In this document: positions 2,590 to 57,107 of the stretch, one piece after another | Layout: the number at the start of each line of letters is the position of its first letter | Numbering within the stretch: position 1 is the first letter of the stretch | From: a virus | Virus record (IMG/VR): IMGVR_UViG_3300036834_000189 | Location: 1-64,000 of that record | DNA length: 64,000 nucleotides | Reading direction: 5' to 3' (one strand) | Position numbers and translations under genes: made by a program | The notes under the pieces: model-generated | What the model was told of the DNA's origin: nothing | What the model saw: the letters and a program-made list of their open reading frames with translations, nothing else | Databases searched by the model: none

Positions 2590-3126
2590 CTACTTAGCCA
2601 CGGCCGAGCCCGCGACAGCGGCTGTAGAGCCAGCAGATGCGGCCGGATCGCGTTGGTGCACGTGTTTGGCATGGGTGGCGCACCACGCCGTGCCGGTCGT
2701 GCACGGCGCGCCGCAGTAAGTCCAGCCCGGCTGCGTCGGATCACCGTCGATCCACCGGCAGCCGGTCTGTTGCACCTGCGACCAGTTGAGCCGCGCCCCG
2801 AGCTGGTCCACGGACGCCGGCAGGCGACGGTGCATGAGCCCGGCGATCGCGCTCCTTGTCGTGTCGAGTGCGTCGGCGATCTGGGTATAGCTCTGTCCCT
2901 GACGACGCAGCTCCAGCGCCTGCGTGATGCGTTCCGGGGGCCATTGGGGGCTAAAGAAGGGTCTGTCCCAGTCCGGTTGTCGCGCGCGGTACAGCATATT
3001 GCGAATCGCGCCGATACCCAGGCCGAGTTCGCGGGCGATCAGCACCGGTCCCTTGCCCGCCGCCCGCAGTTCGAGCACGTAGGCGGCGCGCTCGGGCGTC
3101 CACCAATGGGGCCGGCGCAGGGTCAT
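2590..3126 (-). CDS. gcrA: GcrA-like cell-cycle transcription regulator
   Basis: 178 residues. Two tandem helix-turn-helix units resemble the GcrA N-terminus: residues 7-50 (WWTPERAAYVLELRAAGKG, IARELGLGIGAIRNML) and 62-105 (WPPERITQALELRRQGQSY, IADALDTTRSAIAGLMHRR). The C-terminal part has the GcrA-like Cys/His pattern CRWIDGD, YCGAP, WCATHAKH. In alphaproteobacteria GcrA binds RNA polymerase sigma70 and activates promoters with CcrM-methylated GANTC sites. Family members usually have one HTH, so the duplication is notable. It is the last gene of the leftward region. A role in redirecting host transcription is inferred. Confidence 0.8.
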   Translation of the reverse strand: MTLRRPHWWTPERAAYVLELRAAGKGPVLIARELGLGIGAIRNMLYRARQPDWDRPFFSPQWPPERITQALELRRQGQSYTQIADALDTTRSAIAGLMHRRLPASVDQLGARLNWSQVQQTGCRWIDGDPTQPGWTYCGAPCTTGTAWCATHAKHVHQRDPAASAGSTAAVAGSAVAK

Positions 3127-4818: not shown

Positions 4819-6567
4819 TCAAAAAGGTATCTCTGCGTCGTCGCGCAGGGACCGGTCATCGGTCGCGGCGGGACGCCCAGCAGCGTCGAGCAGCGCCTGC
4901 TCGTCCTCGGACAACGCGACTTGCTGGGTCGGATTGTCGAGTGTCGCATCGATCACCGCCTGCTTCTCGACGATCAGCGTCGCCATCCGCGCGTCGACCG
5001 AACTGTCAAACACCAGATGCTGGACCAGGACGCTGTCGCGCTGACCGATACGATGGCAGCGGTCTTCCGCTTGGCTGACATTGCCGGGGGTCCAGTCCAG
5101 CTCGCCGAACACGACATGGCTTGCCGCGGTCAAGGTGATCCCGACGCCGGCAGCGGTGATGCTGCCGATAAACAGCAAGCAGTTCGGGTCGTTCTGGAAG
5201 CGGTCGACTTCGCCCTGGCGCTTGGCCATCGCCGTCTCGCCGGTCACTACCGCGGCGCCGGGGAACGCTTCGCGGAGCGCCTTCACGACATCATGATGAT
5301 GCACAAAGCAGACGACCTTGTCACCGGTTTCGAGGCAGTCGCGCAGATGCTCGATCAGGTGCGGGATCTTGGCGACCGCAGTGTCGTGGCGGCGGCGGCT
5401 CATCTCTTCAAAAGCCACGCCTTGCGCCTGCCGCAGCTTGCGGACGGCGGCTTCGTACTCGGCTTTGTCGCCCCGCATCTTGGCAGCGGCGAGCATGTGA
5501 CGGGCATCGCGCAGCGCGACTTCGTGGCGCGTGTGCGCTTCGTTCTCGGCCCGCACGACGCTGGCCGCGCCGTTTGCCGAGAGATTGATGATCATCCGCC
5601 GCTTCGCCGGCAGCTCGGTCAATACATCGGCTTTCTTGCGGCGCACCATGAACTTGGCGCGCATCCGGGTCTGCAGTTCTTCGAGGTTGGCAGCGCCGTT
5701 GAAATCCCAGCCGTAGCCACTGTTCGTCGCATTGGTGTAGCGGAACATGAACTTGGTGAACGACGCTCCGAGATCGTGCGGGTCGAGCGAGCGCACCAGC
5801 GGCCACAACTCGTTTGGGCGATTGACGACCGGTGTCCCGGTCATGAAGATCCGCCGACGTGCGGCGATCGGCTTGTCAAAGCCCTTTTCGCGGTCGGCAT
5901 TGGTGGCGCGGTCGGTGCCGAGCAGCGCCCGGGTCCGCTGCGCCTTCTGATTTTTTGCATAATGCGCTTCGTCGGCGACCAGCAGATCCCAGCGCCGCGC
6001 GTCGATCAGCCGCCGAATCTTGGTTATCGTCTCCCATGACGCGATGACGATCGCCGTGTCGGGGAGGTTGTCGCCCGTCGCGATCGCGATCGACATCGGG
6101 CGGACCAGCCATTTGGTCAACTCGCGCTGCCAGTTGGTGCGCAACGTGGCGGGGCAGACGATCAAGATTGTCGCGATCGTCGGGTCGGCGTTGACGACCC
6201 CGATCGCCTCGATGGTCTTGCCCAGCCCCATCTCGTCGGCGATCAGGACGTTGGCGCGGCTCATCGCATAGGCGATGCCGGCCTTCTGATAGCCGAGATA
6301 AGCGAGACCCTGGGGCACTGGAACAGCGATGTCGGCGTCTTCGGCCCGGCTCTGCGCGATCGAGCGGTTGACTGCCGCCACTGCAGCGGCGGCGGTCTTG
6401 GGGTCGAGACGCGCCGCGATGCTCGCGTCAAGGGTGTACCAGACTTTTGCCTGTCCGTCGAAGCGGAACCCGGCATTCTTCACGATATCCTTCGTCTCGT
6501 ACGAGAACGCAAACCGGGCGATCCAGCGGTCGCCTTTCTTGACAACGGTGATGGGTGACAGCGGCAT
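4819..6567 (-). CDS. SNF2-family annealing-type helicase (SMARCAL1-like)
   Basis: 582 residues. An N-terminal module (about 1-60, GDRWIARFAF, NAGFRFDGQAKVWYT) resembles the HARP-like domain of annealing helicases. The SF2 core shows motif I DEMGLGKT, motif II DEAH, motif III TGTPVVNRP, motif V around SITAAGVGITLTAA and motif VI QAEDRCHRIGQ. Such proteins use ATP to rewind or remodel forked and ssDNA-coated DNA; phage versions act in replication-fork repair. It is the first gene behind a clear promoter with a hairpin leader (6570-6631), so it starts its own transcript. Confidence 0.9.
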   Translation of the reverse strand: MPLSPITVVKKGDRWIARFAFSYETKDIVKNAGFRFDGQAKVWYTLDASIAARLDPKTAAAAVAAVNRSIAQSRAEDADIAVPVPQGLAYLGYQKAGIAYAMSRANVLIADEMGLGKTIEAIGVVNADPTIATILIVCPATLRTNWQRELTKWLVRPMSIAIATGDNLPDTAIVIASWETITKIRRLIDARRWDLLVADEAHYAKNQKAQRTRALLGTDRATNADREKGFDKPIAARRRIFMTGTPVVNRPNELWPLVRSLDPHDLGASFTKFMFRYTNATNSGYGWDFNGAANLEELQTRMRAKFMVRRKKADVLTELPAKRRMIINLSANGAASVVRAENEAHTRHEVALRDARHMLAAAKMRGDKAEYEAAVRKLRQAQGVAFEEMSRRRHDTAVAKIPHLIEHLRDCLETGDKVVCFVHHHDVVKALREAFPGAAVVTGETAMAKRQGEVDRFQNDPNCLLFIGSITAAGVGITLTAASHVVFGELDWTPGNVSQAEDRCHRIGQRDSVLVQHLVFDSSVDARMATLIVEKQAVIDATLDNPTQQVALSEDEQALLDAAGRPAATDDRSLRDDAEIPF

Positions 6568-10574: not shown

Positions 10575-11045
10575 TCAAGCTGCCGGTCGGACCAGCACTT
10601 TGCGGGGGAAATGAAAGCCTCGCCCGACCCAATAGCGGATCATTCTAAAGTCGCCTTTCATCTCCATGATCGACGTGGTGATAGTCGACACGCCGAGATC
10701 GCTCGCGACCTCCTTGACGCTCATGCCGGAACGCTTGCGCGCCAGAAAGCAAAGCTCGGCGTCGTTTGCGTCGCTATCGTTCAGCGCGTCATCGAGCCAC
10801 CACCGGATCCGCGCCAGATCGTTGATCGAGAGCAAAGTCGTCTCGCCGTTTTCGAGCTTGATGTATTGGCTCAGGCTGACGCCGAGACCGTTCGCCGCCT
10901 CGCTCTGCGACATTGTTCCCTGCCGCCGACCGCGTGCTGTGCCCTCTACCGACGGCTGGCGATGTCGCCATAGCCACGCATTCTCCGCGAGGTCGCGACG
11001 CCCGAGGTCGAAGTTGATGCCGTTCATTCGTTGCTTTTTAGCCAT
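10575..11045 (-). CDS. XRE-type HTH transcription regulator
   Basis: 156 residues from ATG 11045, with GGAGG 8 nt upstream. A Cro/CI-type helix-turn-helix is visible at about 44-75 (MSQSEAANGLGVSLSQYIKL, ENGE) and a second weaker one at about 108-130 (MSVKEVASDLGVSTITT). It sits behind its own promoter (11069-11098), with a motif array just upstream. Likely a DNA-binding repressor or activator of early genes; targets unknown. Confidence 0.7.
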   Translation of the reverse strand: MAKKQRMNGINFDLGRRDLAENAWLWRHRQPSVEGTARGRRQGTMSQSEAANGLGVSLSQYIKLENGETTLLSINDLARIRWWLDDALNDSDANDAELCFLARKRSGMSVKEVASDLGVSTITTSIMEMKGDFRMIRYWVGRGFHFPRKVLVRPAA

Positions 11046-11934: not shown

Positions 11935-12153
11935 TTACGCAGAAGTGTCGCGATAGATCTGGAGCCGGGTGGTGCGCAGTCCGGGTCGACCATGCGCCGC
12001 GAAGGCGCGTTGCCATTCCGCCAGCTCTTCGATTGTGAGTTGGTAGCGGTCCAGCGCCTCGTCGATCGACAAGGTACCGGCCGCGATCATCGCCAGAATC
12101 TCGGCTTTGCGGCGAGGAACCCAGCGCAGCGTCTTTACTGTAGTCAGTCCCAT
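11935..12153 (-). CDS. sciP: SciP-like CtrA inhibitor (DUF1153), copy 1
   Basis: 72 residues from ATG 12153 behind AGGAGG. It shows the SciP/DUF1153 pattern: LRWVPRRKAEILAMI, then LSIDEALDRYQLTIEELAEW and HGRPGLRTTRLQIYR. In Caulobacter, SciP binds DNA and CtrA and blocks CtrA-activated transcription during S-phase. A phage copy could silence CtrA targets to hold the host in a replication-permissive state (inference). The upstream neighbour is a secreted protein. A second SciP gene lies at 49700. Confidence 0.85.
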   Translation of the reverse strand: MGLTTVKTLRWVPRRKAEILAMIAAGTLSIDEALDRYQLTIEELAEWQRAFAAHGRPGLRTTRLQIYRDTSA

Positions 12154-12931: not shown

Positions 12932-14512
12932 TCAGCCTCGTAAGCTCTCCCCGAGCTTTGGGTCCCTGAGCAATGCGTCGCGCAGGCTGTCGCCTTCCAG
13001 GATGAAGTCGAGCAGCTTCTGCTCGATCGGTGCGCACACCAGATCGTCGATGACCAGCGGCCGGCTGCCGCGCGCCAGCGGGCGAGCCTCGGCCTGCTTG
13101 CGCGCGATGACCGAAGCCGGCGATTCGAAAAACAGAATGTAGTCCGCCGCGCTCAGATCGATCGACATCCCGCCGGTCGCCGCGTTGGCGACCAGCACCG
13201 TCGAATCGCCTGCGCGAAACCGCTGGAGCAGTGCTGGGCGGTCGGTCGACCCGCCGTACAACCACTCGTGCGCGATCTTGCGCTTGGTCAGGAGCTGGCA
13301 CAGCAGCTCGCCGGTATGCGTGTACTCGTGGAAGATGATGAATTTGAAATCCGGCTCCTGACCGAGAAAGTCGTCGAGCCAGACCAGCTTGGCGGCCCCG
13401 GGAAAGTCGACGATGCGCCGCCGGCCGTGGTCGTCGGTGAACGGCAGATAGCCGCTGGCGATCTGCCGCAGCCGGACAAAGATGTTGTCGATCTCGACCG
13501 TGTCGCCTTTGCGCAGCGCGACCAGGGTATCGACGGCGGCGCCGTAGGCCTCGCGCTGCTCCGCTGTCATCGACAGGCGGACCATGCCGTTCAGGACATC
13601 GATGTCCTGCACGTCGCGCAATGCGCAGTGCAGGGTCATCGCCGACATCTTGTCGCGCAGCAGCGGCATCTTCTTGTGGTCGAAGACATAGTCGGTCTTC
13701 GACCATTTGAAGTGGTTGTACTTCTTCGTCGAGAACGCTTCCTCGAAAAAATGATAGACGCTCGACAACGCTTCGCCGCGGTCGATCAGAAAGGCTTGCG
13801 CCCACAGGAGCAGTGGATCGCGGCCGAACGGCGTCCCGGTCAATCCCAAACGCCACGTGCAGTGCGCCGTCAGCTCTTTGGCGATGCCGAACCGCAAGGT
13901 GTCGTAATGCCCAGCCATATGGATCTCGTCGATGACGACGGCGTCAAAGGCCGGGGCCACCGAGCGCACCAGCGGCAAGTTGGTATAAAGTTTTTCTTTC
14001 CCCGCGCGCCGCCCCTGGGTCGCCAGCCGCTTGACGCTGAAGATCTGCTGGAGGGTGCTCCAAGCGATGACGATCCCGTCGACACCGGGGGCGCGGGCTG
14101 CTTCGAGAAAGCGGTCCGCGGCGCCCGCGCCGCTGGTGATGGCGGTGATGTCGAGGTGCGAATGGAAGGGGATCTGGCTCATCCACTCGTCCGCGCCGAT
14201 CGGCGCGTGCGCGATGATCAGTGATTTTCGGGTGAGTATCCCGCTGTAAATCAAATGCGACAGCCAATCGAGGGCAATTTTGGTTTTTCCGGTGCGCATT
14301 TCATAAAACAACAGCGCCCGGCGCGCCCACAGGGCAAACGCCACGGCTTCGAGCTGGTGGCGGCGCGGTGTCGTCCTGGTCAGAAATTCATGCTCGCCGA
14401 TCGAGAAGATAAATGCTTCGAGACGGGATTGCTGAGCGCCGCGGAACTCGAACGGCGGCGGATCTGGTCGGTAGAGGAGAAAGCGGGAAATTGCTTGCTG
14501 TGAAGTCGGCAT
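12932..14512 (-). CDS. SNF2/SF2-type DNA helicase, second copy
   Basis: 526 residues. Motif I is unusual (YEMRTGKTK), motif II is DEIH, motif III GLTGTPFG, and the C-terminal RecA lobe has FKFIIFHEYTHTGELL, VANAATGGMSIDLSAADYIL and ARKQAEARPLARGS (motif VI). This is the layout of phage SNF2-like helicases that act with the replisome or on recombination intermediates. It differs clearly from the SMARCAL1-like protein at 4819. It directly follows the 14513 gene (ATG adjacent to that gene's stop). Confidence 0.85.
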   Translation of the reverse strand: MPTSQQAISRFLLYRPDPPPFEFRGAQQSRLEAFIFSIGEHEFLTRTTPRRHQLEAVAFALWARRALLFYEMRTGKTKIALDWLSHLIYSGILTRKSLIIAHAPIGADEWMSQIPFHSHLDITAITSGAGAADRFLEAARAPGVDGIVIAWSTLQQIFSVKRLATQGRRAGKEKLYTNLPLVRSVAPAFDAVVIDEIHMAGHYDTLRFGIAKELTAHCTWRLGLTGTPFGRDPLLLWAQAFLIDRGEALSSVYHFFEEAFSTKKYNHFKWSKTDYVFDHKKMPLLRDKMSAMTLHCALRDVQDIDVLNGMVRLSMTAEQREAYGAAVDTLVALRKGDTVEIDNIFVRLRQIASGYLPFTDDHGRRRIVDFPGAAKLVWLDDFLGQEPDFKFIIFHEYTHTGELLCQLLTKRKIAHEWLYGGSTDRPALLQRFRAGDSTVLVANAATGGMSIDLSAADYILFFESPASVIARKQAEARPLARGSRPLVIDDLVCAPIEQKLLDFILEGDSLRDALLRDPKLGESLRG

Positions 14513-35156: not shown

Positions 35157-36338
35157 ATGCCATCGCGTGCCCGTCAGATCATGGACGAATGGAACGCACT
35201 CGTCCCGCAAGCTTCGCATCTCCCCGGCGTCCGCCGGTGGACCGGGATCCCGTCCACCATCGCGCAGGGGGAAGAACGCCTCGCGTGGCTGCGCGCGCGG
35301 CTCAACGGCGGCGCAGCGACACCGGCTCCCGCACCGCTGCGGATGGCGGATCGCGATACGCCGCAGGCGGCGCGCTTGCGCGCGGTCTACGAGGAATGGA
35401 ATTCGCTGGTCCCGCAAGCCGCGGGTCTGTCACGGGTCCGCGTGTGGACGCAAGTCCCGGCCGACATCGCGCGCGGCGAGGCGCGGCTCAACTGGCTCAA
35501 GACCCAGCTACGCTACCGCTCCTCGACATTGGGGCTGGACTTCGGGGTCGAGATGGAGTCGCTCTTGCCGAGCGGCACGTATCGCGAAAACCTGCGCGAC
35601 CGCCTGCGCGAAGCCGGGCTGGCTGCCGAAGTCGAGATGCTGAACCACACGACCAGAACATGGTGGAAACTGACGACCGATGGGTCGCTCGGCGATTACG
35701 TGCGCGGGGTCGAAACCGTCAGCCCGATCCTGAACGGCGACGACGGCTTTGCCGCGCTGCGCACCACCTGCCGGACCTTGACCGCGATGCGCGCCACGGT
35801 CACAAAGATATGCGGGCTCCACGTCCACGTCGGGGTGCGTGATCGCGATGTCGAGTTCTTCAAGCGGCTGATCAAGCTCTACGCCACCTTCGAGCCGGTG
35901 ATCGACCGGTTCATGGCAAAGTCGCGGCGCGCCAACAACAGCCGCTGGGCGCGCTCGATCCGTCAGTTTCACGACAGCCAGACGCTCGCCGCCGCGACCA
36001 CGCTCGATGAGCTTGGTCAGGTTTACGGGCGCGACACGCATCACCGCTCGCATCACCGCCAGTACAAGTACCGCAAGCTCAATCTGGACAATGTGTGGGA
36101 GCGCGGCACCGTCGAGTTCCGCCAACATCAAGGATCGGTCGACGCGTTAAAAGTCGAGATGTGGACCCGGCTGTGCCTGAAGATGGTGATCGCCGCGGCG
36201 AAGCCCGATCTCGTACTCGGCCCCGTCACCCTCGACGGTTTTATGACGACGATCGACGCCAGCGATGCCGAGCGCGTCTATTACGCGGCGCGCACTGCCG
36301 CATTCGCCATGCGCGCGCTCGACCAGACCAACCGATAG
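35157..36338 (+). CDS. Amidoligase-family enzyme (COOH-NH2 ligase type)
   Basis: 393 residues. Residues 7-46 and 80-120 are a tandem repeat (MDEWNALVPQASHLPGVRRW versus YEEWNSLVPQAAGLSRVRVW, each ending in a GExRLxWL helix). The catalytic domain (130-390) has amidoligase hallmarks: LGLDFGVEMES, YVRGVETVSPILNG, CGLHVHVG and TVEFRQHQGS. It belongs to the glutamine-synthetase-like ligases predicted to form peptide or amide bonds using ATP. A gamma-glutamylcyclotransferase follows at 36890, the pairing described for phage amidoligase operons. Substrate unknown. Confidence 0.82.
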   Translation: MPSRARQIMDEWNALVPQASHLPGVRRWTGIPSTIAQGEERLAWLRARLNGGAATPAPAPLRMADRDTPQAARLRAVYEEWNSLVPQAAGLSRVRVWTQVPADIARGEARLNWLKTQLRYRSSTLGLDFGVEMESLLPSGTYRENLRDRLREAGLAAEVEMLNHTTRTWWKLTTDGSLGDYVRGVETVSPILNGDDGFAALRTTCRTLTAMRATVTKICGLHVHVGVRDRDVEFFKRLIKLYATFEPVIDRFMAKSRRANNSRWARSIRQFHDSQTLAAATTLDELGQVYGRDTHHRSHHRQYKYRKLNLDNVWERGTVEFRQHQGSVDALKVEMWTRLCLKMVIAAAKPDLVLGPVTLDGFMTTIDASDAERVYYAARTAAFAMRALDQTNR

Positions 36339-39388: not shown

Positions 39389-39853
39389 ATGCGGACCTGG
39401 AAGACATCGTCTACGCCAATGACCACAGTGAACAATTATGCCTTTGGTCGCTATGACGATGGCGAAGTCTGGATACAGACCGAGCCTCGCCAATTAGTGG
39501 CGAACAATGGGAAGGTCTATTTGACCATAAAGGAGCTTCGCGAGCTTCTGGCTTGCGCTGACGGGCAGTGCGGCGGCTGGCGACACCCGCAGAATGAGGC
39601 GAAGGGTGAAGAGATAAACCACATCGGATTTACCGGGACCCGCAGCAAGATCACCAATGAGCAGCAGATGGCTCTGCGGCAAATCTTGCGTGATTGGTGC
39701 CTAGGAGAACCATCGGTGACTGAAAAACCAATGTATCAGAGCTTCGAATCCTATCAACGCTCGTTACTAGAACTCAAACGGCGGGTAGACAAAGGCATAC
39801 CGTTAAAGTTCTACGATATCGCGAACAAGCCGCCTTACGGATCACCACAATAG
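39389..39853 (+). CDS. Hybrid protein containing a copied SLOG-family start
   Basis: 154 residues from ATG 39389 behind AAAGGAG. The first 75 residues look like a small phage domain (YDDGEVWIQTEPRQLVANNG, VYLTIKELRELLACADGQ). Residues ~77-99 (NHIGFTGTRSKITNEQQMAL and following) are nearly identical to the start of the next gene because 71 nt are duplicated (39617-39687 and 39888-39958). The tail then diverges. It looks like a recombination product of two genes. Confidence 0.6.
   Translation: MRTWKTSSTPMTTVNNYAFGRYDDGEVWIQTEPRQLVANNGKVYLTIKELRELLACADGQCGGWRHPQNEAKGEEINHIGFTGTRSKITNEQQMALRQILRDWCLGEPSVTEKPMYQSFESYQRSLLELKRRVDKGIPLKFYDIANKPPYGSPQ
39617..39687 (+). repeat. 71-nt direct duplication (partner 39888-39958)
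   Basis: The two copies differ at only two positions and are in the same reading frame of adjacent genes. They start at AACCACATCGG and end at CAAATCTT. The high identity indicates a recent duplication. Confidence 0.9.
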
Positions 39854-39884
39854 TTGACAGGCTTGATCTGTCGAGTGAGAAAAA

Positions 39885-45578: not shown

Positions 45579-47312
45579 ATGACTGTACAAATTCTCGTTG
45601 GGCACGTTCTTTCGCGTCTCAGAGAATTGCCTGACGAGAGCGTGCACTGCGTCGTCACCTCGCCGCCATACTACGGCCTTAGATCCTACGGCGTAGAGCC
45701 GCAGGTATGGGGCGGCGGTAAGGATTGTCGACACGATTTTCAAATGGAGGAGATCGGCACCGAGATCGGAAAAGGCAACTGGACACAAGCGACGGGCGGT
45801 TCTGACTGGGCCGCCGGTGTGCGTAACAAGGTGACGGCCGAGCATCGCGAACCGATTCGCGAGGTCAAAGAGCGTGGCTTCTGCCGCCGCTGTGGCGCCT
45901 GGCGCGGCGACCTGGGGCTGGAGCCGACAGTCGAGTTGTACATCGCCCATCTGGTCGAGGTGTTTCGCGAGGTCCGCCGGGTGCTGTGCAAGGACGGCAC
46001 GCTGTGGGTGAATCTGGGCGATTCTTACGCTGGCGGCGGTGGGTTTTCGGCTGGAGCGCCATCATCGGAGCATAGCAAATCCGGGAAGTACGGCACGCTT
46101 GGCGCATTGAAGAGCGGCGGCATTAAACCAAGCGGTACGATCAAGCCGAAGGATCTGTTGCTAATGCCGGCGCAGCTGGCGCTGGCGCTGCGGGCCGATG
46201 GGTGGGTGCTGAGATCGGAGATTGTGTGGGCGAAGGCTGCGCCTATGCCAGAAAGCGTGACCGATCGGGCCACGTGCGCGCATGAGAAAATCTTTATGCT
46301 CGCGAAATCGAATCAAACGACATTCTGGACGCACCGCGACCACGCAGGATCGAGGACGAAGCCGGCGCCGGATTATCGTTGGGTCGACCACGACAACGAT
46401 GATACGGAGACGGACATCGAGCCACCAAACTGGCGCACGGAGCCTGCCGCAGTCAAAGTGCCGGCACACCCAAAGAATTCGTTCAGCTCGGATACTGACG
46501 ACTCCAATAGAGCGCCAGGCATGTCGTGGGCTGGGCATTTCCGCAAGCGCTGGTCACGCATCAACCTCTGGGCCGCGCACGATTATTTCTTCGACAACGA
46601 GGCGGTGAAGGAAGAGGCGGAATATCCGAATGGGCCGAATGCACCCGACGCCATCAAGTCGCCCTATGGGCAGGGGTTTATGCGCCGGGCGCCGCTGATC
46701 AGCGAGAACCGCAAGGATCTGAGATCGGATATTGAGAGCCGTCACCGATCGTCAATCGATGGCGGCCAATCGCTACAGGTCAAACCGGACGGCAAGCGCA
46801 ACATGCGCAACGTCTGGCACCTCGGCCCCGAGCCCTTCCCCGAGGCGCACTTCGCAACATACCCGACCGAGATCCCGCGCCGCGCGATCCTCGCCGGCAC
46901 CAGCGCTAAGGGTGTCTGCCCGAAATGCGGGGCGCCTTGGGTGAGGGTGGTTGAGAAGAAATCATTCGCTCGCGCGATGGATCGGCTTTACGGCGGAACG
47001 CTCGGTCACAATCCGAGCGGTACGGTTCCCGGCAGTAATACGCGCGGCTGCCCAGATCCGGAGACGCAGACCATTGGCTGGCGCCCCTCCTGCTCCTGCG
47101 ATGCGGGCGATCCGCAACCGGCCACAGTGCTCGACCCGTTTCTCGGCAGCGGCACTACTGCGATGGTCGCCAATTGGTTTGGTCGTGATTGCATCGGCAT
47201 CGAATTGAACGAGGAGTATGCGGTAATGGCTGAATACCGCTCCCGTGGAGAGCCGCCGCCGCCGTCCGAATTGGCTGTTCCGACCGCGTTCGGCGCGCTG
47301 CTGCATTGGTGA
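45579..47312 (+). CDS. DNA methyltransferase (N4/N6 amino-type, beta class)
   Basis: 577 residues. Catalytic motif IV VTSPPYYGLRSYG near residue 30 (TSPPY, typical of N4-cytosine or N6-adenine enzymes) and SAM-binding motif I at the end (TVLDPFLGSGTTAMVANWF), the permuted beta-class order. Large inserts contain CRRCGAW and CPKCGAPW zinc pairs. It may protect phage DNA from restriction or change host methylation patterns read by GcrA; no cognate restriction enzyme is visible. Specificity cannot be read from sequence, and similarity to CcrM was not established. Confidence 0.88.
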   Translation: MTVQILVGHVLSRLRELPDESVHCVVTSPPYYGLRSYGVEPQVWGGGKDCRHDFQMEEIGTEIGKGNWTQATGGSDWAAGVRNKVTAEHREPIREVKERGFCRRCGAWRGDLGLEPTVELYIAHLVEVFREVRRVLCKDGTLWVNLGDSYAGGGGFSAGAPSSEHSKSGKYGTLGALKSGGIKPSGTIKPKDLLLMPAQLALALRADGWVLRSEIVWAKAAPMPESVTDRATCAHEKIFMLAKSNQTTFWTHRDHAGSRTKPAPDYRWVDHDNDDTETDIEPPNWRTEPAAVKVPAHPKNSFSSDTDDSNRAPGMSWAGHFRKRWSRINLWAAHDYFFDNEAVKEEAEYPNGPNAPDAIKSPYGQGFMRRAPLISENRKDLRSDIESRHRSSIDGGQSLQVKPDGKRNMRNVWHLGPEPFPEAHFATYPTEIPRRAILAGTSAKGVCPKCGAPWVRVVEKKSFARAMDRLYGGTLGHNPSGTVPGSNTRGCPDPETQTIGWRPSCSCDAGDPQPATVLDPFLGSGTTAMVANWFGRDCIGIELNEEYAVMAEYRSRGEPPPPSELAVPTAFGALLHW

Positions 47313-56015: not shown

Positions 56016-57107
56016 ATGCCTGCATTCAAATACCGGGTACGCTCGCGCGAGGATATGGATAAACGCGCCAATCAAAGCGGCAGTGATTTCGAGGGTTGGC
56101 TGAAGGACGAATATCGGATGTATACCCCGACCAAAGGGGAGAACTGCATTCGGATACTGCCGCCTTCGCCGGCTTGGGATGAGACGCATTACAGCATGGA
56201 CGTTTGGGTGCACTTTAGCGTCGGTCCCGAACGCGCATCGGTCATTTGTCTGTGGAAGATGAATGGTCAGCCTTGTCCGGTCTGCGAAGAGCGCGCACGC
56301 GCCGAACGGGCGCGCGACGAGGAGACCGCCAAGCCGCTCAAACCCTCGCGACGGGTGTTGATGTTTCTGATCAACCGCAAGGACGAGGCACAGGGTGTGC
56401 TGGCCTGGGGCATGCCGTTTACCCTGGACCGTGACATTGTCAAAGCGTCGAAGGATCGCTCGACCGGTGAATACTTTTTTATCGACGAGCCCGAGCAGGG
56501 ATACGACATTTATTTTGACAAAGAGGGCGAGCAGCTGATGACCAAATATACCGGTGTCGCACGCGCGCAGCGCGCCAGCTCGATCAATCCCAAGCATCTC
56601 GATTGGCTGGCCGACAATCCGCTTCCCGAGGCCTTGCGATGGCGTGATTACGACGAGGTCAAGCGTCTGTACGAGGGGGCCGGGCGCGGTGAGGCGCGTC
56701 CGCAAGAGTCGGCGCGCCCGCAAGAGTCGGGGCGTTCACAAGAGCGCCCGCAAGAGTCGGGGCGTCCGCAGTCGGGACGTTCGCAGTCGGAGCGTCCGCA
56801 AGCATCGGCGCGTCCGCAAGCGCGTCCGCAAGCTCGGGACGAAGACGACGAGGACATCGACGACAGCATAGACGACAACGATTACCGCGGCGCTGCCGGG
56901 CACTCTGGTACGGTAGCCGAGCCGCCGCCGCGCGACGAGCCGTTCGCGCGGACCGCGCCTCTCCGGCGCCCCAGCGCAGCCAAGCCGCAAGCCGAGGATG
57001 CTCCGCCATTCGAACCGGGGCCAAAGCCGCGCGACAATGGCGCTGGGAAGTCGACATCCGGGGTCTCGCGCGCGGATGAGTTGCGCGCCAAATTCCGTTC
57101 CGGGTAG
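56016..57107 (+). CDS. Single-stranded DNA-binding protein (gp32-like)
   Basis: 363 residues from ATG 56016 with GGAGGAG upstream. N-terminal domain (1-215): SGSDFEGWLKDEYRMYTPTK, NCIRILPPSPAWDETHYSMD, WVHFSVGPERASVICLWKMN and CPVCEERARAERARDEETAK, the layout of phage gp32-like SSBs with a zinc-like CxxC. Residues ~225-270 are RPQES/GRSQ tandem repeats, followed by an acidic stretch (RDEDDEDIDDSIDDNDYRG) that likely binds partner proteins. It coats ssDNA for replication and RecA loading. Confidence 0.8.
   Translation: MPAFKYRVRSREDMDKRANQSGSDFEGWLKDEYRMYTPTKGENCIRILPPSPAWDETHYSMDVWVHFSVGPERASVICLWKMNGQPCPVCEERARAERARDEETAKPLKPSRRVLMFLINRKDEAQGVLAWGMPFTLDRDIVKASKDRSTGEYFFIDEPEQGYDIYFDKEGEQLMTKYTGVARAQRASSINPKHLDWLADNPLPEALRWRDYDEVKRLYEGAGRGEARPQESARPQESGRSQERPQESGRPQSGRSQSERPQASARPQARPQARDEDDEDIDDSIDDNDYRGAAGHSGTVAEPPPRDEPFARTAPLRRPSAAKPQAEDAPPFEPGPKPRDNGAGKSTSGVSRADELRAKFRSG

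Follow-up and report, generated by a model that had tools for sequence, protein, structure and literature searches.

Does a tailed phage encode regulators from both sides of the alphaproteobacterial cell cycle and, if so, what might it do with them? The question is raised by a 64-kb stretch of viral DNA (the window), part of a phage record of 116,206 bases known from metagenomes only, in which the initial annotation had discerned two DUF1153/SciP patterns and one GcrA pattern. SciP is active in G1 and GcrA during S phase; in Caulobacter, ctrA, ccrM and podJ are among the genes preceded by SciP motifs. GcrA recognises m6A-modified GANTC and binds domain 2 of sigma70. At GCGNC motifs, SciP binds DNA and acts as a repressor of CtrA-activated promoters, that of ctrA among them (PMC4287350), while GcrA is a sigma70 cofactor whose GcrA-SID binds sigma2 (PMC7403470).

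The SciP1, SciP2 and GcrA-like genes sit amid phage replication genes on a single 116-kb record. The replication genes encode a DnaB-like helicase, a primase, a DNA polymerase, a clamp loader, a UvsX-like recombinase and homologues of SbcC and SbcD; portal, major head protein and terminase genes are present on the record as well, and no integrase was found in the subset of genes scanned. SciP1 and the GcrA-like gene belong to a leftward block, and SciP2 belongs to a rightward block and is directly followed by a tRNA-Thr gene. All three gene starts have a plausible ribosome-binding site (AGGAGGG for SciP1). A second assembly, a separate record of 60 kb, is 99.995% identical over 20 kb around SciP2, which argues against a chimera at this position. 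Because the first gene (1-442) resembles a tail-fibre end that is absent from the last gene, the 116 kb probably represent an almost complete genome in permuted form. The host is probably an alphaproteobacterium, to judge from the regulators themselves.

Several further features of this phage merit description. Two separate SNF2-type helicase genes (PHROG 62) occupy positions 4819-6567 and 12932-14512, and close to SciP1 (10575-11045) lies the gene for a 156-aa protein that combines a Cro/C1-type HTH with another HTH-like stretch and may be a phage repressor. An amidoligase-family protein is encoded at 35157-36338 (PHROG 2443, 4.9e-37). The 1623-aa protein at L004:4653-9524 matches phage portal proteins over its first 500 residues and continues for 1100 more. 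DNA repeats occur in gene 81 (56696-56818; 75-base units, about 79% identical) and near gene 58 (39608-39880; an 80-base repeat, 94% identical).

Coordinates of the regulator genes, their domains and the DNA methyltransferase gene in the window.
Feature	Coordinates	Strand	Supporting matches
SciP1, DUF1153/SciP-core HTH protein, 72 aa	11935..12153	minus	Pfam DUF1153 6.6e-23, profile 23-87
SciP2, more diverged DUF1153/SciP-core HTH protein, 71 aa	49700..49915	plus	Pfam DUF1153 5e-19, profile 29-87
GcrA-like protein, 178 aa	2590..3126	minus	Pfam GcrA 3.4e-13; PDB 7YE1 GcrA 8.4e-7
HTH1, residues 13-50, diverged	2977..3090	minus	Sigma70_r4_2 match
HTH2, residues 61-100, aligned to GcrA DNA-binding domain	2827..2946	minus	GcrA profile 2-42; 5YIU/7YE1 alignment
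Sigma-interacting-type domain, residues 111-160	2647..2796	minus	GcrA profile 99-148
DNA methyltransferase, TSPPY ... DPFLGSGTT	45579..47312	plus	N6_N4_Mtase 1.3e-32; PHROG 67 3.1e-47

Searches with the DUF1153 and GcrA models placed all three proteins in the families that had been proposed for them. By their profile matches, the two small proteins are clearly members of the DUF1153/SciP family: SciP1 scores 81.1 bits and SciP2 68.7 bits with Pfam DUF1153 (PF06627), above the curated cut-off of 23.5 bits. An HMM built from host SciPs only and run against all six translated reading frames of the 116-kb record returned exactly two matches, SciP1 at 85.8 and SciP2 at 51.3 bits; since the best score on 20 Markov-shuffled genomes was 13.8 bits, chance matches can be excluded. 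In an alignment of 20 SciPs (SciP1, SciP2, 17 host proteins and one from another phage), 18 positions are invariant, including RW..RRKA, Y, L, E, W and GLR.T....YR. The phage proteins thus have in common with host SciP, the Caulobacter CtrA inhibitor, the HTH core from RWVxRRK to GLRxTRxQxYR at roughly 39-61% identity; SciP1 is about 49-61% identical to the host proteins and about 46% to SciP2, and SciP2 is 39-47% identical to the other aligned SciPs. Among host proteins, the nearest ones found belong to Sphingomonadales, at less than 62% identity, too low for naming a host.

SciP1 matches the solved DUF1153 structure PDB 2JRT with an E-value of 4e-13, with 2OA4 as a further relative, and the same two structures are the best PDB matches, with weak E-values, of the SciP2 AlphaFold model (pLDDT 71.5). 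In a tree of 62 columns with long branches, SciP1, SciP2 and the SciP of the other phage form a clade (95/79) in which SciP1 and SciP2 pair (97/73); given these long branches and few columns, the tree does not choose between one duplication and two separate captures.

What sets the phage proteins apart from host SciP, besides being phage-borne and present in two copies, is their N-terminus. SciP1 and SciP2 start at the RW motif or shortly ahead of it (SciP2 directly at it). In the alignment, neither has the VIGPxGxPLTxADLP segment of host proteins, in which G, P, L, T, L and P show at least 90% conservation across the aligned sequences; nor is this segment encoded in-frame upstream of either start. 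Its absence contributes to the scores of both proteins with the NCBIfam SciP equivalog (NF051866), 82.4 bits for SciP1 (model 28-90) and 67.4 bits for SciP2 (32-90), which lie below the cut-off of 100 bits.

The third protein is also a family member of unusual make-up. With Pfam GcrA (PF07750) it scores 50.7 bits against a curated cut-off of 26.9, and both the DNA-binding and the sigma domain are matched. Its score with the NCBIfam GcrA equivalog (NF050816) is 38.6 bits, far under the cut-off of 280 bits, and it is therefore to be regarded as a GcrA-family protein rather than a GcrA orthologue. The two HTH units that the initial annotation ascribed to it are real: HTH1 resembles HTH2 and the canonical GcrA DNA-binding domain better than all 300 of 300 shuffles. 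A CRWxxGDP...CG...C..H signature is common to this protein, host GcrAs and phiCbK gp222. The AlphaFold model is poor (pLDDT 54.6).

How rare is such a combination? When 50,697 records of cultured phages were searched by tblastn, SciP was detected in one, Erythrobacter phage XM05, by queries comprising SciP1, SciP2, a host SciP and the SciP of viral contig L019, while a host GcrA query detected GcrA in 28, mostly phiCbK-like phages. Profile searches found no DUF1153 in five representative GcrA phages, GcrA was not found in XM05, and no cultured phage with SciP and GcrA together was found. Scans of IMG/VR, which use short exact patterns and miss diverged copies, added a single other phage lineage whose SciP is convincing (L019 and L020, whose phage nature is a reading of neighbouring open reading frames); the sole match of SciP2 was the second assembly of the same phage, and no relatives of SciP1, the GcrA-like protein or the XM05 SciP were found. 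Two other candidates, L018 (a SciP identical to that of S. meliloti at a contig end) and L021 (a degenerate frame), were excluded because they are probably debris or host DNA. DUF1153 occurs in 108 of 289 sampled alphaproteobacterial genomes, and as only five of these carry two copies, two on one phage are unusual. Two SciPs together with a GcrA-like protein are a real and very rare set, and in this respect the claim that the phage holds a richer toolkit stands; the part of that claim that rested on a two-HTH GcrA does not make the phage unique, as Brevundimonas phage vB_BgoS-Bajun has one too.

Comparison with other phages brings out what is particular to this one. Phage homologues of GcrA have reportedly been known since 2012. 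Phage GcrAs have been described (PMC3556154, PMC9437464), and those of phiCbK-like phages were proposed to alter the replicative state of the host (PMC3556154). The gp222 protein of the Caulobacter phage phiCbK is likewise a GcrA-family protein with the C-terminal sigma-interacting signature; the window protein differs in its second, diverged HTH and in that its phage also carries SciPs, DUF1153 being found neither in phiCbK nor in CcrRogue. BAJUN_00520 of Bajun also combines tandem GcrA-type HTHs with a sigma domain. Its two HTHs, however, resemble each other much more closely than HTH1 resembles HTH2 in the window protein, a difference suggestive of an independent duplication, and Bajun has no DUF1153. 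XM05 carries a phage DUF1153 protein (annotated from MRYTARIKAE), but in one copy and without GcrA; it is about 38-40% identical to the window proteins and is unplaced in the tree. Phage GcrA was already known from phiCbK, whereas no report of a phage-borne SciP was found in the open-access literature searched.

The initial annotation further linked the regulators to a DNA methyltransferase and to GANTC methylation in a circuit that could lock the host in a replication-permissive state. The methyltransferase gene is real, but its product is not CcrM: with the CcrM equivalog (NF050803) it scores 70.4 bits under a cut-off of 830 bits, and it is not counted as part of the regulator set. Both enzymes belong to the beta-type N6/N4 superfamily, and the window enzyme has TSPPY and a large insert. 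GANTC is depleted in the phage genome (225 sites against 311 expected under a Markov model, a ratio of 0.72) and not enriched between genes (40 versus 53), and a CcrM/GANTC circuit on phage DNA is thus not supported. The exact CtrA box TTAA-N7-TTAA is absent from the phage genome, and with up to one mismatch it occurs once, inside the simulated range of 1-7. All motif counts concern phage DNA only. The proposed lock is weakened on three counts: the methyltransferase falls outside CcrM, GANTC sites are depleted without intergenic enrichment, and the SciPs lack the N-terminal segment; moreover, with SciP acting in G1 and GcrA in S phase, a replication-permissive state is only one possible net effect.

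As a set, the sequences suggest that the phage reprograms host cell-cycle gene expression. The reading we favour, tentatively and at somewhat less than even confidence, is that it acquired and reshaped the DNA-binding cores of two regulators of the host cell cycle, and that it mutes the host CtrA programme and redirects the sigma70 polymerase. SciP1 and SciP2 would be made from the phage's own ribosome-binding sites and, as their conserved residues predict, would bind SciP-type operators (GCGNC) upstream of CtrA-activated host promoters and repress them. The GcrA-like protein would bind sigma70 domain 2 via its conserved C-terminal domain, and its two HTH units may steer RNA polymerase to a chosen set of promoters. 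We hypothesise as the physiological outcome that the CtrA programme of the host would be muted and transcription turned toward replication-phase or phage genes. A more elaborate form of this scheme, in which the two SciP cores, stripped of their N-terminal segment, have diverged for different host promoters and, with a two-headed GcrA redirecting sigma70, form a rebuilt CtrA-override kit that turns off the CtrA programme of the host and sets an infection-specific cell-cycle phase, appears rather unlikely.

Alternatively, the regulators could be host-derived proteins that now control phage promoters only, for autoregulation or timing, and leave the host cell cycle untouched, which is possible if doubtful. 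Such a role would fit the position of SciP1 near the small two-HTH regulator gene and the divergence of the HTH regions, and a phage without CtrA boxes has promoters that need not depend on CtrA. The full SciP motif GCGNC-N5-GNCGC (taken from PMC4287350) occurs 30 times in the phage genome against a simulated mean of 18.8, with two intergenic copies just upstream of gene starts (4690 and 23135); the excess nevertheless lies inside the simulated range (14-32), and only three of the 30 motifs are intergenic, about chance level. The invariant SciP core and the sigma-domain signature also suggest, against purely phage-directed control, that host partners are still contacted.

The missing N-terminal segment allows for a different role, in which the phage SciPs would be dominant-negative decoys that sit on SciP sites or associate with host SciP but do not repress, so that CtrA-activated genes, for example those for surface appendages, stay on. 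In its annotated form the XM05 protein shares the short N-terminus of SciP1 and SciP2, and the Caulobacter alleles sciP(T24I) and sciP(T65A) reduce SciP effects (PMC4241560). In the aligned SciP of S. meliloti, T21 and T62 are the only two threonines with a spacing of 41 residues; this spacing, rather than the Caulobacter sequence, would place T24 at the PLT threonine of the absent segment and T65 where the putative recognition helix begins, a position occupied by T in SciP1 and by S in SciP2. On the other hand, the SciP of the unrelated 38.7-kb viral contig (IMGVR_UViG_3300018420_000045; L019:7929-8213) is full length with its N-terminal segment, and the decoy role seems unlikely. The contig encodes a family-A DNA polymerase, and its SciP gene is flanked by an exonuclease-like gene and a large ATPase-like gene (rIIA-like by eye). 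Least probable of all, and very unlikely, is that the genes are neutral cargo or contamination, that is, functionless host genes acquired by chance or a chimeric contig. They are small, and a single lineage of this phage is known; yet they are equipped with ribosome-binding sites and surrounded by phage genes, the second assembly carries the SciP2 region, contaminating host DNA would bring a full-length SciP, and noise is an unlikely source of three genes of a common regulatory theme on a single phage.

Control of phage promoters by host CtrA is known, and a CtrA-sensing 'lytic deferment' has been described for other alphaproteobacterial phages; if it proves true, a phage-encoded override of CtrA would be its active counterpart. 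Carrying the activator as well as the repressor side of the circuit, this phage provides a natural minimal SciP, reduced to its core, and a GcrA with two DNA-binding heads. The core-only SciPs could reveal the role of the missing N-terminal segment, and the set as a whole could show whether phages actively steer, and not merely sense, the alphaproteobacterial cell cycle.
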